Shown in pieces: positions 6,384-47,073 of a stretch of DNA of 47,073 nucleotides; the first letter of the stretch is position 1; every line of letters starts with the position of its first letter. The notes under the pieces are model-generated. The model did no database searches, was not told the origin of the DNA, and saw only the letters and a list, made by a program, of their open reading frames with translations. The DNA is from Anaeromyces robustus. Taxonomy: Eukaryota > Neocallimastigomycota > Neocallimastigomycetes > Neocallimastigales > Neocallimastigaceae. The stretch is from the NCBI GenBank assembly GCA_002104895.1, contig MCFG01000471.1, positions 1 to 47,073 of the forward strand. Reading direction: 5' to 3'. A program made the position numbers and the translations under genes.

Positions 6384-12183
<5,800 letters not shown>

Positions 12184-13904
12184 TTATCTAGAGTGACTCA
12201 TTGTTGATTCTTTTAAGGCAACTAATTGCTTAGTTCTGAATGTTTCATAGTGAACAATACCAGTTGTTTCAATTAAATCTTGAAGGTGAGTTCTAGTTAA
12301 GAAGTTTCTAAGTTGTGAGAATTCACAGTGAGTTTCATCTTCAACTATAATTATTATTAGTTAAAATATAGGAAATAATAAATAATAAAAGATATATTTA
12401 TTCAGTATTAATATATATTTTTATATAAATATTAATTATAGTTAATTATATATATATATATCAAATAAACTTACTGTTAATTGAACCCCAACGAGTCTTA
12501 CGACCACGAACAGCCTTACCATCAACAACAACATTTCTTTCGGAACCAACAACAGCAAATGGAATTAAGTCCTATTTAAATTATATAATTATAATAACAA
12601 ATTTTAATATATAAAATATAAATAACAAGTTAATTTCAATAAATTATTGTATTTTTGTAATTTTTAAATATTAAAAATAATTACATATTTATATTATGCT
12701 GTTTTTTAATATTATCAATATTTTATAAGATATATAAAAGATATTTACTCTCATTTCTTGGTTTAAGGCCTTTTCAGCTCTATCAGCTTCAGTAACACTG
12801 TAATCATCGGTATCAACATCATCGTATGGGAAGAGAACAATGTTATTGAAAGCAAGTTCTTCCTTAATACGCTTTTTGAAAGCGGCACGTTCTTCTAAAG
12901 TTAAGGAATCAGCTTTAGCAATAACTGGAATAACATTACAAATGTCAGAAAGTTTCTTAAGAACAATGATATCAATTGGTTTAAGACTGTATTTTGATTT
13001 TTTATATTTATTTATTACATTCATAATAATGTATATATGGTTTTAAACATATTAATAAGTTGAAAAAAAAAAAAACAAAAAAAAAAAAAAAAAAAAAAGA
13101 AAAAAAAGAAAAGAAAAAAAAAATCTAATATTTACGAATGACCAGTTGGAGCAATGAAATATAATACAGCATGGATTCTAGTATCAGCAATTCTTCTATC
13201 TCTGTTTGGTGTTAATTCTTTACGAAGATATGTAGCATATTGATCCTTAATATATTTAATAATGGATTCCCAGCTATTATCATTTTATGTATAAGTTAAA
13301 ATTTATAAACCAATATATAAATATAAATATTTATATAACAGGTAATATGTAAATATATATGTATTAAATAATTATAATCACCAGTTTTCATTATTAATTT
13401 GATCACCGAAACCTGGAGTATCAGTGATACTTAATCTAAGTCTAACACCGTTTTCTTCGATAACTATTGATATTTATTAATGTTTAAATATAATAATTAA
13501 TATATTTATGTTTATGTTTCAATTTAAATAATGAATGTGGTTTTTAAATATATATTTAAAATGATAGTTACCATGAGTAATTGTGTTAATTTCAGTAGTT
13601 TGACGTATTGGGTCACTAGCTTTTTGAGTAGCCTTATTATCTAAAAGATGAGCAGCGAAAAGAGTATTAACCATAGTTGATTTACCTAAACCGGATTGAC
13701 CTAATAATATTTATATATTGTATTTAATTAATAATAAATCTTAGTCTAAAATTTATATTAACAATATATTATTATATAGTACTATAAATGTTTATAAATA
13801 TTTTATTTATATTATATTATACAGTTATATATATTTATATCAATTTATATTGGTTTATGTTTGAAAACAAAAAAAAAAAAAAAAAAGAATTTTAAATTAA
13901 TATT

Positions 13905-13936
<32 letters not shown>

Positions 13937-14943
13937 CTTTTTGAATATGTATTTTATAAAAGATATAAAATACATCTATAATTGAAATAATTACTGTTTA
14001 TTTATTATAAAAATTAAAGTTTGTAATATTTTAAATAATAGTTGTCGATTTGGTTTTTTGTCTCTTCTGTTCATACGTGGTAAAAATTTGACGTAAATAG
14101 TATATATATTTACAAAATTTTTATATTTGTTATTTATTTGTTTATTATTATATTTTTATTTTATATTTATTTGTTTATTTTTATATTTATATTTTACAGG
14201 AATGATTATTGGTTTTTAAATTATTATCCTTGTTTTCACATTTTGTTATAATTTTATTTATCAATTTTACAATTGTTATTATTTTTTATTGGAATAAATT
14301 AAATATAAGGTTGAACATTTATAATTCATCTTGATTTATTAAATGTACATCTGTAAAATAATTTATTATTTTCCAAAAAAAGGAAAATATTGAACATAAA
14401 AACTTATTAATTTTCCTCAATTTTATACTAACCAACAACCATAAGATTTAGAGTAAAACCTCTCTTTACTAATTTCTTTTCAATTTGTCTAGTAATAGTA
14501 TCAAAACCGACATATCCAGTTAAAGTAATCTTTGTAATGGTTTTATAATTTTTGTTTGATTGTTTGTTTATTTTTATAATAAATAAATAAATAAATAAAT
14601 TAAAATAAATAAAAATTTAAATAAAATAAAATAAAATAAAATATTAGCATAATTATATATATTTTTTATTTATTTTAATTAATATAATAATTTTATTAAT
14701 TATGTTTATATTTTTGTAATATTGTTATCGATAAATAAATAAACATAATGAAAGTAACAATTTACTAATTATTTATTTTTATAATTAATAAATAATTAAT
14801 TATCAATTTTTATCATTAAAAAACAATATGATCTATTTTAATTTATTAATATTGAATTTATTATTGATTATATGAATATTCACTTTCTTATTTTCTGGAT
14901 TTTGTTGTTGAACGACGACTGGACTTTGTTGACCTTGTTCCAT
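12184..14943 (-). CDS. CDC10: Septin, CDC10-like (short septin without coiled coil)
   Basis: Eight exons: 14884-14943, 14433-14529, 13572-13700, 13382-13463, 13136-13273, 12749-12986, 12475-12571, 12184-12344. They encode 333 aa in frame, ending in TAA. Septins are GTP-binding proteins that assemble into filaments at division sites and cell cortex. The P-loop GQSGLGKST is at residues 53-61, the G3 motif DTPGFG at 111-116 and the G4 motif AKAD at 192-195. The septin unique region follows with RGRKTRWG, and the C-terminal HLQDLIETT ends shortly afterwards. Length (CDC10 of yeast is 322 aa), the GYVGFDTIT start of the core and the missing C-terminal coiled coil point to the CDC10 group. Exon 1 is the least certain: it codes for a Gln-rich 20-residue leader with a GTGAAT donor and CAAAG acceptor. 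Intron 2 is unusually long for this gene (732 nt). Confidence 0.94.
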
Positions 14944-19979: not shown

Positions 19980-22733
19980 ATGGAACAATCAAATGGTAAA
20001 CTTCACAGCAGTTTAATCTGCGAATTAAAAAATAAATTAGAAAAAACTGAAAAGTTCAACTTGGAAGATGAATACGAAATTATTTCTATTCCAAAAGAAA
20101 AAATAGTAAAACGTATTGTTGAAGTATGTAAAAAATGATAAAATAATAAAATATATAATTGTTATATAATTTATTTGTATTATAAAATATAAAATAAAAA
20201 TTGAATAATTTATTATATTATTATATGTAAAAATACTTAATTTCTCTTCTTTTCTTTAAATTTTTTATTTATATTATTTCTCTATTTATATACCTGTATA
20301 TATAATTACAAATTTAAATTAATAAACAATTCAATAATAAAGAAAATTCCAGTTGCACCACCAAGACCACCAATTATTAGACTTCTTCAACCAATTATTC
20401 GTTTAAGAATTGGAAAACCAAAAAGTACTATTCCAGTTCCACCACCAAGACCTTTAATGGACTTTGAAAAGAATAGAATTCCAGTTCCACCACCAAGACC
20501 TTTAATGGACTTTGAAAAGAACAGAATTCCAATCCCACCACCAAGACCTTTAATGGACTTTGAAAAGAACAGAATTCCAATCCCACCACCAAGACCTTTA
20601 ATGGACTTTGAAAAGAACAGAATTCCAGTCCCACCACCAAGACCTTTAGTGGACTTTGAAAAGAACAGAATTCCAATCCCACCACCAAGACCTTTAATGG
20701 ACTTTGAAAAGAAGAGAATTCCAGTTCCACCACCAAGACCTTTAATGGACTTTGAAAAGAAGAGAATTCCAATTCCACCACCAAGACCATTGATGGACTT
20801 TGAAAAGAAGAGAATTCCAGTTCCACCACCAAGACCTTTAATGGACTTTGAAAAGAACAGAATTCCAGTCCCACCACCAAGACCTTTAATGGACTTTGAA
20901 AAGAAGAGAATTCCAGTTCCACCACCAAGACCTTTAATGGACTTTGAAAAGAAGAGAATTCCAATTCCACCACCAAGACCATTGATGGACTTTGAAAAGA
21001 AGAGAATTCCAATTCCACCACCAAGACCATTGATGGACTTTGAAAAGAAGAGAATTCCAATTCCACCACCAAGACCATTGATGGACTTTGAAAAGAAGAG
21101 AATTCCAATTCCACCACCAAGACCATTGATGGACTTTGAAAAGAAGAGAATTCCAGTCCCACCACCAAGACCATTGATGGACTTTGAAAAGAAGAGAATT
21201 CCAGTCCCACCACCAAGACCTTTAATGGACTTTGAAAAGAAGAGAATTCCAGTTCCACCACCAAGACCTTTAATGGACTTTGAAAAGAAGAGAATTCCAG
21301 TTCCACCACCAAGACCTTTAATGGACTTTGAAAAGAAGAGAATTCCAGTTCCACCACCAAGACCATTGATGGACTTTGAAAAGAAGAGAATTCCAGTCCC
21401 ACCACCAAGACCTTTAATGGACTTTGAAAAGAAGAGAATTCCAGTTCCACCACCAAGACCATTGATGGACTTTGAAAAGAAGAGAATTCCAGTTCCACCA
21501 CCAAGACCTTTAATGGACTTTGAAAAGAAGAGAATTCCAGTTCCACCACCAAGACCATTGATGGACTTTGAAAAGAAGAGAATTCCAGTTCCACCACCAA
21601 GACCTTTAATGGACTTTGAAAAGAAAGTTACTAAAGAAATTAAATTCAAGGTTGAAGATGACGATGATGATTTCACCTTTGTTCCAATGATGGTTGAAAA
21701 AACTACTGAATATCCAGATGAAGTTATTAATGCTCATGAAAAAGTTATGAATGAACTTCTTAGTAAAACTAAGAAACTTGAAAAGAATAAGAAATCTAAC
21801 GGTATGTTATCTGCTCCAACTAAGATGAACAACCACTGTTTATTAATGTATGAAATTAAAAATTACAAGAGTAAACTTAATACTGTTAACTCTTCTATTA
21901 AGGATAATAAGATGACTCCATCAACTTTAAAAGACTTATTACTTTATGAAATTAAGAACCACAAAGTTTCATTAAAGAAAGCTCAAAAAACTGTTGTTCA
22001 TTCTAACTTAAATTCTCGTGGTTACATGGCTTGGGAATTAAAGGATTCTAACATTTGTAAGAATGTTAAGAATGAAAAGAAAGAAACTAAGAAGACTGAA
22101 AAGGTTATGCCAAAATCTCTTAGTCCAATGCAACAAATCATTTGGGAAATTAAGAACCGTGATATTACTCTCAAGAAAACTGCTGTTATTAACAAGAAGG
22201 AAACTCCACTTAAACTTTCCTTCCCAGAACAACTTGTTTTAGAAATTAAGAATCATCGTCCATTACGTAAGGTTGCAATTGAAGACATTCCAAAAGCTAT
22301 TGGTGGTAGTCGTTGCTCAAACGAAAAGGATATTTCATTAGAAATTTTAAATAAGGCTGCTAATTCAGTTTGTAACCAATCTCGTGAAAAGGTCTACATT
22401 GTACACCAAGCTCGTCAAAGACTTACTTCTGATGATCAATACGCTAAACTTCTTTGTAATATTAAGAAATTCAAGAAATGTGGTGAAGAAAATGATGAAG
22501 AAATAAATTCTTCTGTCTACACTAAGAAATACTCTAACCCAATGATAAATAAATATTATGGTAGTGCTAACAGTAACAAAAACGTCTGGTGGGATGAAGA
22601 ACACAAGAAGATTATGCGTAGTATCAGAAGAAGAAACTTCTCTTTAAGATCAATTGAAGATGAAGTTTGGGTTTATGTTCCACCAAAACATAACTCAGAA
22701 ACTCAAAAGAAGTCTAGATTCTGGTTATGGTAA
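19980..22733 (+). CDS. Proline-rich 24-repeat protein with tandem WH2-like motifs, probable actin regulator
   Basis: Two exons, 19980-20123 and 20343-22733, encode 844 aa in frame, ending in TAA. Residues 87-470 are 24 head-to-tail copies of the 16-residue unit MDFEKKRIPVPPPRPL with only N/K, V/I and one M/V change. A decayed copy (IPVAPPRPP) precedes them. PPPRP is a class of SH3-, WW- or profilin-binding ligand. The remaining 374 residues carry a second, diverged repeat centred on EIKN: LLMYEIKNYKSKLNTV (548-563), LLLYEIKNHKVSLKKA (580-595), WELKDSN (near 613), IIWEIKNRDITLKKT (near 650), LVLEIKNHRPLRKV (near 682), and weaker forms near 715, 754 and 808. A lone copy, LICELKN, sits in exon 1. 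The shape L-L-x-x-I-x(5,6)-L-K/R-K resembles the WH2 actin-binding motif. Codon choice (AAG, ACT, CGT, TCT) suggests strong expression. No transmembrane segment. The reading frame is near certain; the function is inference. Confidence 0.9.
20457..21608 (+). repeat. 48-bp coding minisatellite, exactly 24 units
   Basis: The units are 48 bp and encode one 16-residue proline-rich repeat each. Units 1-5 and 9 carry the Asn (AAT/AAC) form and the others the Lys (AAG) form. The last two codons alternate between CCT TTA and CCA TTG, with runs of one type (for example units 11-14 with ATT CCA and CCA TTG), as expected from recent unit turnover by unequal exchange. Confidence 0.97.
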
Positions 22734-31896: not shown

Positions 31897-32816
31897 ATGG
31901 CTGCTACTAAGAGTTCCCCAAAAACAGAAAAGTCTACTGAAAAGAAAGCTAAAAGTCAACCAGACCACCCAAAATACATGTATGATATCTAATATGATAG
32001 CAATTAAATAATTATAATAATAAATATAAATGTAATATTTTCTTTTAGATATTAAAACACTGTTATTTTAAAATATTATCGTTTAAAACTAACTTCTACT
32101 TTTTCATGTTTATTTATTTATAAAGGGATATGATCAGGTATATAATTTAATAATTTTAAAGTACCTTGTAGGTGATATAATATTATCATAATGTAGTGAA
32201 TAAAATGATAAATTAATAAAGCTCCGTCAATATTTTATGATATATTATTTTTGAGAAGAAACAATTTTTTATTATTGGAAAGATATTCTTGAAATATTAA
32301 CCATTTATAATCATTTTTAATTTAATGTATATTAATTATTTATCTATCTTAACTTTATTAATATTTTATAGAGGTAATGATAAAAATATTCTATATAATA
32401 AAATTTTATTTTCAACTCTTTGAAATATAAATATAATATTAATGTTATAATATATATTTATTGTTATTTATTTAATAATATACAGAGGCTATTATTGAAT
32501 TAAAGGTATATATACTTTTATGTGTCATTTATAGAATTTCTATATACTAAGTATATACATGAATGTATTTTTAATAACACCTTTTTATATTCTTTTTATA
32601 ATTTATAATATTAATATATTAATATTTAATAATAGGATCGTACTGGTTCCAGTAGACAAGGTAAATAATTTATTGCAACTATATTATATTATATATATTA
32701 AGAAATTTTAAATGTGTATAACACTTATAAAATTCTTTCTTTATTATTATTAACAGCTATTAAAAAGTACATTCTTTCTAAATACACACTTACTGAATCT
32801 GTTGCTAGTATGTATC

Positions 32817-32870
<54 letters not shown>

Positions 32871-33901
32871 ATATAAAAGAAATAAACAAAATAATAATTA
32901 TTACTCCATATAAAATTTTCTTATTAAAAATTTTTTTTATTTTTTCTGTTTTTTTATTCATTAAATAAATTTTTTTTTATATATATTATAAAAAGTCAAG
33001 CAAATTAATTTAGCTTTAAAGCGTGGTTTAGACCAAAAAATCTTATATTGTCCACAAGGACATTCTAATTCATACAAATTATTTAAGCAAGAAAAAGTAA
33101 TATTTTTTTTTATTCTTATTATGAAAATATTCATAAATAAAAGTTTTGAGTGGAATAATACATATCATATATCATCCATATATTTGAAATATAAATTTGA
33201 TTGGATAGAATTATAATAAATAATTATTATTTAAATTATTATTATTTAAAATTTTATTTATATAATATTAAATCTTATTTAAAATTTAAAAATTCTAAGA
33301 AGTATATATATAAAATATTAATAATAATAATAATTTAATATAATAGTTTTTAAGATCAATTTTTTAATTTGATGATATATAAAATTATATTAAAATATTG
33401 GATAATAATTATAAATATTTCAAATAAATATAATATTTAATTAAAAATAAATAATATATGTAACAGTAATATATTATTTATAAATAATTTTAATATAATA
33501 TATTATTATCATATAGTTATTTTAATATAATCAAAATAAGATAATAATTAACATTTTAATAATAAGGAAATAATATTATTTATAATAATACTAATTAATA
33601 ATTTATTTATATATAATATATTTAATATTTGATATTTTATTAGCCAAAACCAAAGAAGCCAGTTGCTAAGAAAGTAGCTGAAAAGAAGAAGACTACAACT
33701 AAGAAAGCTAAACCAGCTGCTAAGAAGGCTACTACTAAGAAGACTACTACTAAGAAGGCTGCTTCTACTAAAAAGGCTGCTACCACTAAGAAATCCACAA
33801 CTAAAGCTGCTACCACTAAAAAGGCTGCTTCTACTAAGAAGGTTATTAAGAAGAAATCTGCTTCATCAACCACTAAAAAGGCTAAGTCTAAATCTAAATA
33901 A
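31897..33901 (+). CDS. H1: Linker histone H1
   Basis: Eight exons: 31897-31979, 32126-32137, 32372-32373, 32486-32505, 32636-32660, 32757-32807, 32996-33096, 33644-33901. They encode 183 aa, ending in TAA. The globular winged-helix domain runs HPKYMDMI, then REAIIELKDRTGSSRQAI, KKYILSKYTL, NLALKRGLDQKILYCPQG and SNSYKLFKQE, which follows fungal H1 without gaps. The tail is the Lys/Ala/Thr-rich DNA-neutralising type (AAKKATTKK-like). H1 binds linker DNA and compacts chromatin. The first exons are extremely small: 12, 2, 20 and 25 nt. The 2-nt exon is inferred because frame and residue spacing require it. An in-frame ATG at 31870 would add nine residues (MINKKSKIE). I chose 31897 because MAATKSS is more histone-like and its codons match the rest, but the upstream ATG also has A at -3 and would be met first by scanning ribosomes. 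No 3' histone stem-loop is seen. Confidence 0.93.
32126..32137 (+). other. H1: 12-nt coding microexon of histone H1 (exon 2)
   Basis: GGATATGATCAG lies between a TATAAAG acceptor and a GTATAT donor. It supplies the DMI of HPKYMDMI; phase 2 enters and leaves. Confidence 0.88.
32372..32373 (+). other. H1: Predicted 2-nt coding microexon of histone H1 (exon 3)
   Basis: The dinucleotide AG is enclosed by a TTTTATAG acceptor and a GTAATG donor. Joined between ...ATC AG and AG GCT..., it yields ATC AGA GAG GCT (I-R-E-A), giving exactly the residue count and the acidic residue typical of the H1 helix. Direct joining of exons 2 and 4 would hit a stop after a few codons. An alternative is a 4-nt exon CTCC (32221-32224) with the acceptor of exon 4 shifted by two bases, giving I-S-S-A with the same length; its GTCAAT donor is weaker. 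Confidence 0.6.
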
Positions 33902-42966: not shown

Positions 42967-43161
42967 AGAAAATAAAAAAAAAAAAATTAAAAACAAATAA
43001 AATACATTTAACAAAAATAAAAATAATATCAAAAGATTAATAATAAATAATAATACAATTTTATAAAGAAAAATAGAAAAAAGAAAAATAGAAAAAAGAA
43101 AAACTTATAAAAAAATGTAATTTATAAGTTAAATAAAATTAAATAATAAAACTTAATAAAA

Positions 43162-43338
<177 letters not shown>

Positions 43339-43756
43339 CAATTAATATTTATCTTTTATTTTGTAATAAATGATTGATATATTTATTGAATTTATATTTT
43401 TATTTTATTTTCTTTTTGTAATTATTTTTTTATCTTTTACTTTTTATTTTATTTATTTTTATTATTACCATTATAAGTTTATTTTGATTTGTTTTGTTTT
43501 TAAATATTTACTTAATTTGGCTGTTTTGGTAATTATATATATATATATATATTGTAACCAGATTTCTAAAAATTAAACAATAAATACAATAATTTTAAAC
43601 AAGTTTAAAATTCAAAGAAATAAAAATATTATTATATGTTATTTTTATTATTATTTTTTAGTAGATAATATTAAAAAAAAAAAAAAAAGATAAGTATAAA
43701 TTTTAATATTTTTAATATTTTCATTTTGAAAAATCTGGATTATTAGATTTATGTAG

Positions 43757-43893
<137 letters not shown>

Positions 43894-45088
43894 AAATTCG
43901 TATCTAAATTTTTTTAAGCTATATTATAAATATATTACTTATATTCATTATATACACATAGAAAAGTAGAAATAATAACAATATTTACCATAATAAATAA
44001 TATGTAATTATACTACATAAATAAATGTATATTAATATTTAAACTTTTCCGCACATAAATACTTTTTGACATATATAGTAATTAAATATCAAAATTTTTT
44101 ATAAATATTAATATTTATTTATCATTCTGTATCATACTTATCAGTTAAATGAGAAAAAAAAAATTAATACATATTAATATAATATTAAATATATAAATAG
44201 ATAAATTTTTTAAATATATATATATATTTAAATAATTTTGAACATATATAAATAATAATTTTATCATATTTATTATTATTATTTTTTCAAATGATGTTTA
44301 ACTTTGGAACTTTAAATTTTATAAAAAAAAATTAAACAAATTTAATAAGATAGATAGAATATTAGATAGTTTTTTTTATTGTTAAATTGATATCATATTT
44401 ATAAAATATGATGGTAAACTTTATTTTATTATTTCTTAAATACCGAGGTTTTTTGTTTAAAAAAAAAAAGAAAAAAAAAAAAAAAAACAATAAATAAAAT
44501 ATAATGTTTGACTCTGTATGATAAATATCTGTATAATTAATTAATTTATTTTGCTGATGACCGTAAATAAATTAATTTTATGTATATATATTAATGAAAA
44601 TTATAATATATATATTTTCGTAATATTATCATTATTTAGTTATGATTATTTTTTTTAATGAAGCTACATTTTTATTTATTATTTTAGTATTATATATAGT
44701 ATTTATTATATTATAATATAGTATTGTATTAAATACATGTATAATTATTCTTTTTCCTTTTTTTATCAAACATTTCATTTAATAAATAATAATAAATAAT
44801 ATTAAATAAATAAATAAATAAATAAATCATTAAATAAATTAATAAATAAACCATTAAATAAATCAATAAGTAAATCAATAAATAAATCAATAATATATTT
44901 TTTGTTTTTAATATATGTATAAATGTTTCTGTAAAATTTATATTTTTCCTTTGATTTTGTTCTTATTTTATTGGTGTTACATTACATTATATTAGTATTA
45001 TATTGGATTATGTATTTTATATATAGAATTGTCAATATTTTTTTTTCTGACTTAGTGTAATGTTTAAATAAAAAAAAATGTTTTTTTT

Positions 45089-45348
<260 letters not shown>

Positions 45349-46516
45349 ATGTTAATAATAATAATAGTAATAATACTAATTATAAAATTACAATAATTAA
45401 ATATTTACTAATGTCAAAAATAATAATAAAGAAAAAATTTTCCTTTTTATTAATTAATTTTGTTTTGTGTGAATTGTTTTAATCAATTTTAATTAATATT
45501 ATTTTTACTTTGTGTTATCAAATTATTCAATTTATTTTAATTATATTTTATTATACAATTTAATATACTATTTACATTTTATTTTTTTATTTAATATAGA
45601 TGAATTTTAGTTTATCTTAAGTATTTATATATATATATTTATAAAAATAATAAAAATATCAATTACTCTACTTATTTTATTTTATATTTTACTTTTTTAT
45701 AGTCTATAATATATATTCCATAATTTTATTCCATATATTTAATATTAGATAATATTTATTATATACTATATATTTTATATTCCATATGCCAATATCCAAC
45801 AATCTATATTTAAATTTTTTATCTTATTTTCCTATAATAAACATTTAAATATTCGTTATTATATAATTTATTATCATTTATAATTATTTAATTTTTTTAT
45901 TTTATTTTTTTTTTTTTTTAATTAATTAAAAAAAAGACTATTTAAATAGTAATTAAAGTTTTACATATTTTCAGTTAATTTAATTTAAAAAGTAGTACAA
46001 AGTTTTAATAAAAAGATAAATATATAAGATTATATTTAATTGTATTGTTAAGGTAATAAACTTATAACAGTGGAATAAATATGGTTAAATAAAATAATAT
46101 ATATAGTTATATTAAAATTATATTAAGATAATATATATTATTATTATTCATAATATATGTAATATTATATTATATATATTATAATTAATTTACTATTAAC
46201 ATATCAATTAAATATATTTGATTTATATTTTTAATTATTAAAAATGTATTATATATTATTAAATAATAATATTAATAATTAATTTCTTAATTTATGTATT
46301 TTTATTCATGTTTATTTTATATTTAATACATTAATATTAATATATATTTTATTATAATTTTCTTTAACTTAAATTTCTTTTAATATTTTAATAAACAAAA
46401 AAGGAAAATACTAAATTTTAAATACTAAAAAAAATGGTTATTTCTAATTTTTTATTAAACATTTTCGTATTATACAGTAAATTAATTAAAAGTATTAATT
46501 TAAAATAACCGGGGAC

Positions 46517-46552
<36 letters not shown>

Positions 46553-47073
46553 ATATAAACAAAAAAAAGCCTTTTTTTTTTTTTTTTTACTTTTAATTTT
46601 ATATATTAACATCATTTTTTTTGGGTATTAAATTTAATATTTAAAACTATAAAAAATAGTTTTTATTCTCTTCTATTTTTATTATATATTATTATATTTT
46701 AAAAAATAGTAAAAGGGAAAAAGAAACTTATATAAAAAATAAGTAAAATATAAATAAGATAAAATAAAATAAGATAAAATAAAATAAAATTAAATTAAAT
46801 TAAAAAAATAGAATAAAATAAAATATAGTAAAACATATAAATAATAAAACAAAATAAAAAAAATAAAATGAAATATAATATAATAATAATAATAATAATT
46901 AAAAAAACTTTATTTTTTTTTAAAAAAAGAAAGAAAATAAAAAATTATATTTTTTATTTCTAAATTTAAATAGTTTTGATATTAATTTTATTTAAGATAG
47001 ATTATAATAATTTTTTGAATCTTTAATAAAGGCTTATTTATTTTTTAATTTAAATATTTTTCATTTTTTTTAA

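Follow-up and report, generated by a model that had tools for sequence, protein, structure and literature searches.

A constitutive exon of 1 nt is found in the Arabidopsis gene APC11, and its authors favour the successive removal of two introns (PMC4674806). In land plants, the 1-nt exons of APC11 and VPS55 are conserved and were confirmed by RNA-seq and RT-PCR; the text of that paper contains no word-initial '2-nt' (PMC8831610). The CYP621A P450 genes of Fusarium carry a 1-nt exon (AG-G-GT) in 20 orthologues, with SRA evidence, and a rescue by a cryptic exon after the loss of a base near the boundary is proposed by the authors (PMC12940212). According to its title, a further report concerns an RNA-confirmed 1-nt exon in the mitochondrial cox1 gene of placozoans (PMC5436844). 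Among the titles and abstract openings listed for open-licence papers, none concerns a 2-nt exon; the two papers in which the words '2 nt exon' or '2 bp exon' occur give them another meaning and describe no such exon. 'Microexon' and 'Neocallimastigomycota' gave no joint match in the open-licence literature searched. The placozoan exon is mitochondrial and hence outside the nuclear spliceosome. A recursive splice site (ratchet site) is a juxtaposed AG|GT in an intron and contributes no bases.

The locus described here encodes a linker histone H1 and belongs to an anaerobic gut fungus. Its predicted 2-nt exon would probably add to the ultra-short exons already described, those cited above being of 1 nt. 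It resembles that of APC11 as an ultra-short constitutive exon that lies between introns and is needed for the product; APC11 differs as a plant gene with a 1-nt exon studied in reporter constructs, whereas the H1 exon has 2 nt, belongs to a gut fungus and is predicted from sequence (PMC4674806). With the Fusarium genes, it shares a fungal host, a phase gap at a conserved motif and a candidate exon in an over-long intron; the Fusarium exon has 1 nt and 20 orthologues, whereas the gene models of the relatives of this fungus seem to lack the 2-nt exon (PMC12940212). As with plant microexons, standard annotation misses such exons, so that annotated proteins are shorter or different (PMC8831610). 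Like a ratchet site, the H1 site presents AG|GT inside an intron; unlike a ratchet site, it must retain two bases.

The H1 gene and its product

The window, i.e. the whole stretch of DNA analysed, is the complete contig C414 (47073 bases) of a genome of 70.2 Mb in 769 contigs. Its G+C content is 11-24% (nine 5-kb steps computed). A 48-nt tandem repeat (20430-21625; 24.9 copies, 96% matches) lies in an open frame (20241-22733, +), is translated as recurring PVPPPRPLMDFEKKRI and belongs to the 5-kb step with the highest G+C content. A gene of Peptidase family M3 with several exons is found at about 7475-9675 (-) (PF01432 on three pieces).

The H1 gene (31897-33901, +) has a coding span of 2005 nt including seven introns. 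Its eight exons of 83, 12, 2, 20, 25, 51, 101 and 258 nt, as predicted, give an assembled CDS of 552 nt including the stop, which encodes an intact linker histone of 183 aa. The first 126 aa match Pfam Linker_histone PF00538 (83.6 bits, E 1.1e-23, cut-off 22.4). Helix 1 aligns without a gap to the solved H1.0 chains. The C-terminal tail, encoded by the last exon, is K/A/T-rich, in keeping with the lysine-rich tail of a linker histone. The nearest named proteins are those of Piromyces finnis and Neocallimastix lanati, which suggests a member of the Neocallimastigomycota. The features are given below; P0001 is a protein encoded on short contigs.

31897..31979 (+): exon 1, 83 nt; ends ...CAC CCA AAA TAC AT; protein same as P0001.
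31980..32125 (+): intron 1, 146 nt; GTATGA...AAAG.
32126..32137 (+): 12-nt microexon GGATATGATCAG; flanks aaag / gtatat; contributes MDMIR with its neighbours.
32138..32371 (+): intron 2, 234 nt; GTATAT...TATAG.
32222..32225 (+): 4-nt exon CTCC as an alternative; Ser-Ser predicted, at odds with P0001.
32372..32373 (+): probable 2-nt exon AG; flanks ttttatag / gtaatg; based on the frame, the R-E of P0001 and splice-site scores.
32374..32485 (+): intron 3, 112 nt; GTAATG...ATACAG; internal AG absent before its own acceptor.
32482..32487 (+): ACAGAG; an AC 3′ splice site following 32483 is a rival that, by sequence inspection, would lead to an mRNA identical to that of the 2-nt exon.
32486..32505 (+): 20-nt exon AGGCTATTATTGAATTAAAG; flanks atacag / gtatat.
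32636..32660 (+): 25-nt exon; assembled CDS.
32757..32807 (+): 51-nt exon; assembled CDS.
32996..33096 (+): 101-nt exon; assembled CDS.
33644..33901 (+): last exon, 258 nt with the stop; lysine/alanine-rich tail.

The long intron 7 (33209-33642) has numerous matches elsewhere in the genome, most of them at about 65-77%, and may be a dispersed repeat or of low complexity. Elsewhere in the genome, a second H1 gene (L001, C668:154459-157614) has few introns and a helix 1 encoded within one exon; the first 542 bases of this locus are N. In L002 (C490:173906-177085), an open frame encodes a linker-histone-like domain (30.7 bits).

Reading frame and expressed sequence

The 12-nt exon ends in AG with its codon still open, and the 20-nt exon, which begins AGGCT, needs two extra bases. 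If 32137 is joined directly to 32486, the frame is broken and a stop is met at codon 36; this joining is also contradicted by P0001. Single extra exons of 1-120 nt preceded by AG and followed by GT or GC were enumerated, with both possible acceptors of the next exon. Exactly two keep the frame without a stop, i.e. AG, which gives Arg-Glu, and CTCC, which gives Ser-Ser; AG is the sole single canonical extra exon that gives Arg-Glu. The 2 nt are needed both for the reading frame and for conserved residues. The AG is flanked by TATAG and by GTAATG, a weak donor, with introns of 234 and 112 nt on either side, and these two sites would be the ones used by the splicing machinery. The exon at 32372-32373 is probably real (probability of about 0.75). 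The preliminary description had given the letters of the exons 32126-32137, 32372-32373 and 32486-32505, all of which are present with their flanks, and had recognised that a 2-nt exon satisfies the change of phase between the 12- and 20-nt exons. Its phrase 'cluster of microexons' is fair for H1 (12, 2, 20 and 25 nt). Among 30 internal exons found in the comparison septin genes, the smallest measures 38 nt, with an aligner that misses exons of 1-2 nt.

A search of 5.8 billion proteins retrieved P0001 (183 aa), which is identical to the prediction with the 2-nt exon over 183 of 183 aa. It reads Arg-Glu exactly where the AG exon predicts it; this is a match at the protein level, from which the junction codons are deduced. 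P0001 is encoded on six contigs, the longest of 1154 nt, and its source tag 'lgn' presumably denotes the Logan assemblies of public reads. No intronless copy of H1 was found in the genome among the candidates scored (4 of 4; 40 of 1962 in a second search). Given a gene of 2005 nt, contigs no longer than 1154 nt and the absence of an intronless copy among those candidates, the six contigs should derive from spliced RNA. The 90%-identity cluster of P0001 has one member sequence and therefore holds no form that skips the 12 nt. A contig-derived orthologue, P0002 (206 aa, on 2 contigs not exceeding 944 nt), likewise reads MDMIREAI. The Arg-Glu of P0001 argues against both direct joining and CTCC. 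It is seen as a protein encoded by six short contigs, and two rival readings predict an identical mRNA.

Splice-site scores and alternative readings

Chance was estimated from 20000 dinucleotide-shuffled copies of the intron, as the share of copies in which the pattern occurs one or more times. AG-NN-GT of any kind is not rare (0.23 of the shuffles). Since Arg-Glu is observed, the exon has to be AG or GG, and the pattern to be considered is AG[AG]GGT, which occurs in 0.014 of the shuffles; YAG[AG]GGTA occurs in 0.0035. A count of TATAGAGGTAAT in the genome (11, versus 45 for the reversed control) was discarded as evidence because this string was chosen after the site had been seen.

Splice sites were scored with a model of 51 introns from the same genome, i.e. 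51 donors and 51 acceptors of septin, H1, H3 and H1-paralogue sites. It includes 36 introns from six septin genes (spliced alignment), seven of the window septin, the H1 sites not under test, one H3 intron and one H1-paralogue intron. The 36 septin introns were kept from 38, two terminal ones with unlikely ends having been dropped before the 51 were counted; locus L047 was omitted because it is the same gene as L051. The acceptor of the 2-nt exon scores above 27 of the 51 (about the median) and its donor above 5 of the 51 (weak). The donor GTAATG is absent from the 51 (GTAATT, 5; GTAATA, 4). For a 2-nt [AG]G exon in the H1 intron, the position-averaged likelihood ratio is 74. The score of this intron is equalled or exceeded in 4 of 1804 AT-rich blocks of 348 nt; these are not independent draws, since the blocks overlap by half, some loci have stretches in common with one another or with the window, and blocks with at least 20% G+C were omitted. 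Introns of 234 and 112 nt are within the length range of the genome, and an intron of 346 nt is surpassed by 4 of 50.

With a cruder 15-intron model, the donor scores 1.0 (lowest training site, 4.1) and the acceptor 4.1 (lowest, 4.6), the training sites not being left out; both test sites lie below all 15 training sites, which counts against the 2-nt exon. With the same model, 4 of the 18 AG[AG]GGT sites in 349216 bases, the test site among them, reach the sum of the test site. Since 15 sites do not suffice for such a model, the 51-intron model took its place.

The same mRNA as with the 2-nt exon would result from an AC 3′ splice site at 32483 or from a 2-nt deletion in the assembly, so cDNA alone is unable to prove the exon. 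The reading of the transcript junction, put forward in the preliminary description as a test, is therefore not decisive: AGAGAGGCT would also come from a GT-AC intron (32138-32483) or from a genomic CAG-AGAGGCT. An assembly error or a strain difference is an unlikely explanation. The true gene would have two more bases and read CAG|AGAGGCT with a 22-nt exon, AGAGGT would be coincidental, and the genome would read ACAGAGAGGCT, CAGAGAGGCT or TATAGAGAGGCT, not the assembled ATACAGAGGCT. The gene models of P. finnis and N. lanati, which join AT to xGAG and may thus indicate AG|xGAGGCT, fit this explanation. So does the overlap of window positions 43010-47071 with the end of contig C282 (98%), where the 4128 columns contain 35 substitutions as well as 41 indel events, including 3 of 2 nt: indel errors or alleles exist in the assembly, these differences being either unmerged alleles or uncorrected contig-end errors. 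However, the H1 site is 14.7 kb from the right end of the contig, the gene is at least 13 kb from the contig ends, and its other coding bases are without indel. Moreover, the window septin, whose eight exons were assembled as those of H1 were, shows three substitutions and no indel against P0121 over 333 aa, and the coincidence needed is the one seen in 4 of 1804 blocks. This septin (12187-14943, -) is Cdc10-like, has ordinary exons of 60-238 nt and matches the product of a 1002-nt contig at 99%. C282 stops about 9 kb before H1, and no second H1 allele was found in the assembly among 40 scored of 1962 candidates.

A single GT-AC intron (32138-32483) with a non-canonical AC 3′ end, spliced to AGAGGCT, is very improbable. 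By sequence inspection, it gives an identical mRNA and protein without any 2-nt exon, and relatives may carry AG at this place, one substitution away. Yet the AC site scores -1.0 (above 2 of the 51), whereas the canonical CAG two bases downstream scores 7.6 (above 43 of the 51 acceptors, itself among them), and the AGAGGT coincidence is required here too. In yeast, GU-AC introns are poorly spliced. U12-type donors have a consensus like RTATCCTT; the donor at 32138 is GTATATAA, and its GTATAT is unlike a U12 donor, so that by its donor the intron does not resemble the U12-type/AT-AC class. Little credence is given to a degenerate gene, in which the frame gap would be the mark of a pseudogene and P0001 would come from another strain with an intact junction. 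An intron-poor H1 paralogue is indeed present on contig C668, but the product equals P0001 from end to end, and the frame is kept in the other seven exons. The 4-nt exon CTCC, joined to GCT after a CAGAG acceptor in a transcript reading AGCTCCGCT, can practically be dismissed. It had been described one base too low (it lies at 32222-32225); it does keep the frame, and its own acceptor scores above 24 of the 51. However, its donor GTCAAT scores above 1 of the 51 and the downstream acceptor CAGAG above 2, and it predicts Ser-Ser where P0001 has Arg-Glu.

Splicing order, relatives and origin

The preferred reading is that the AG at 32372-32373 would be a constitutive 2-nt exon of a divided linker histone gene. 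With one base each, it would complete an Arg codon and open the Glu codon that follows (AG|A G|AG) in helix 1 of the winged helix, with the mRNA junction ATCAGAGAGGCT. Two spliceosomes could hardly assemble two bases apart; the obvious model is intron definition, with the introns removed in sequence. Each flanking intron would most likely be recognised by its own ends, and both would be removed successively. If intron 2 is removed first, ...ATCAG-AG|GTAATG would result, i.e. a 14-nt exon with an AG|GT donor. If intron 3 is removed first, TATAG|AG-AGGCT would result, i.e. a 22-nt exon. Either order would work.

When 12 H1 proteins are aligned, four residues of helix 1 are absent from two, namely the annotated P. 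finnis and N. lanati proteins (HPKYI----EAIIELK). The absent residues match the 12-nt exon in length and place and are found in the other 10 proteins, including two contig-derived orthologues. The simplest reading would be that a 12-nt exon was skipped by annotation, although the exon may really be skipped in these species. The junction of AT with xGAG in these relatives suggests that their next exon starts AG|xGAG and would be an undivided 22-nt exon. The 2-nt exon would then be derived and of recent date in this fungus. H1 DNA of the relatives was sought in 175 (viral_contigs) and 587 (genome_contigs) pattern-matched stretches, none of which encodes a relative. A four-sequence profile, with 8000 candidates scored, retrieved at E 1e-20 or better only the same four gut-fungus sequences and one Funneliformis protein.

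The odds are about even that the H1 gene provides the first case of a 2-nt constitutive exon with expressed-sequence support, and that the exon is young. An ancestral 22-nt microexon, undivided in Piromyces and Neocallimastix, would have been split into 2 + 20 nt by the gain of a 112-nt intron, or a shifted acceptor would have been rescued by a cryptic 2-nt exon. The rescue could have followed damage to an acceptor (AG to AC), the cryptic exon being adopted in compensation, as proposed for Fusarium (PMC12940212). An origin of intron 3 by tandem duplication was rejected: although the two acceptor regions can be aligned in register, their score is also attained in 48 of 500 shuffles, and among 1225 acceptor pairs this one ranks 73rd, which gives no support.

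If real, the 2-nt exon stands between the published 1-nt and 3-nt exons. It would argue again that exon definition is dispensable, and sequential splicing would be testable on a small gene. The H1 proteins of two gut fungi would carry an annotation fault, lacking four residues of helix 1 where the gene described here has a 12-nt microexon. If the 2-nt exon is indeed young, gut fungi would provide, next to a conserved 12-nt microexon dropped by annotation in two of them, a before-and-after pair for an exon reaching minimum size.
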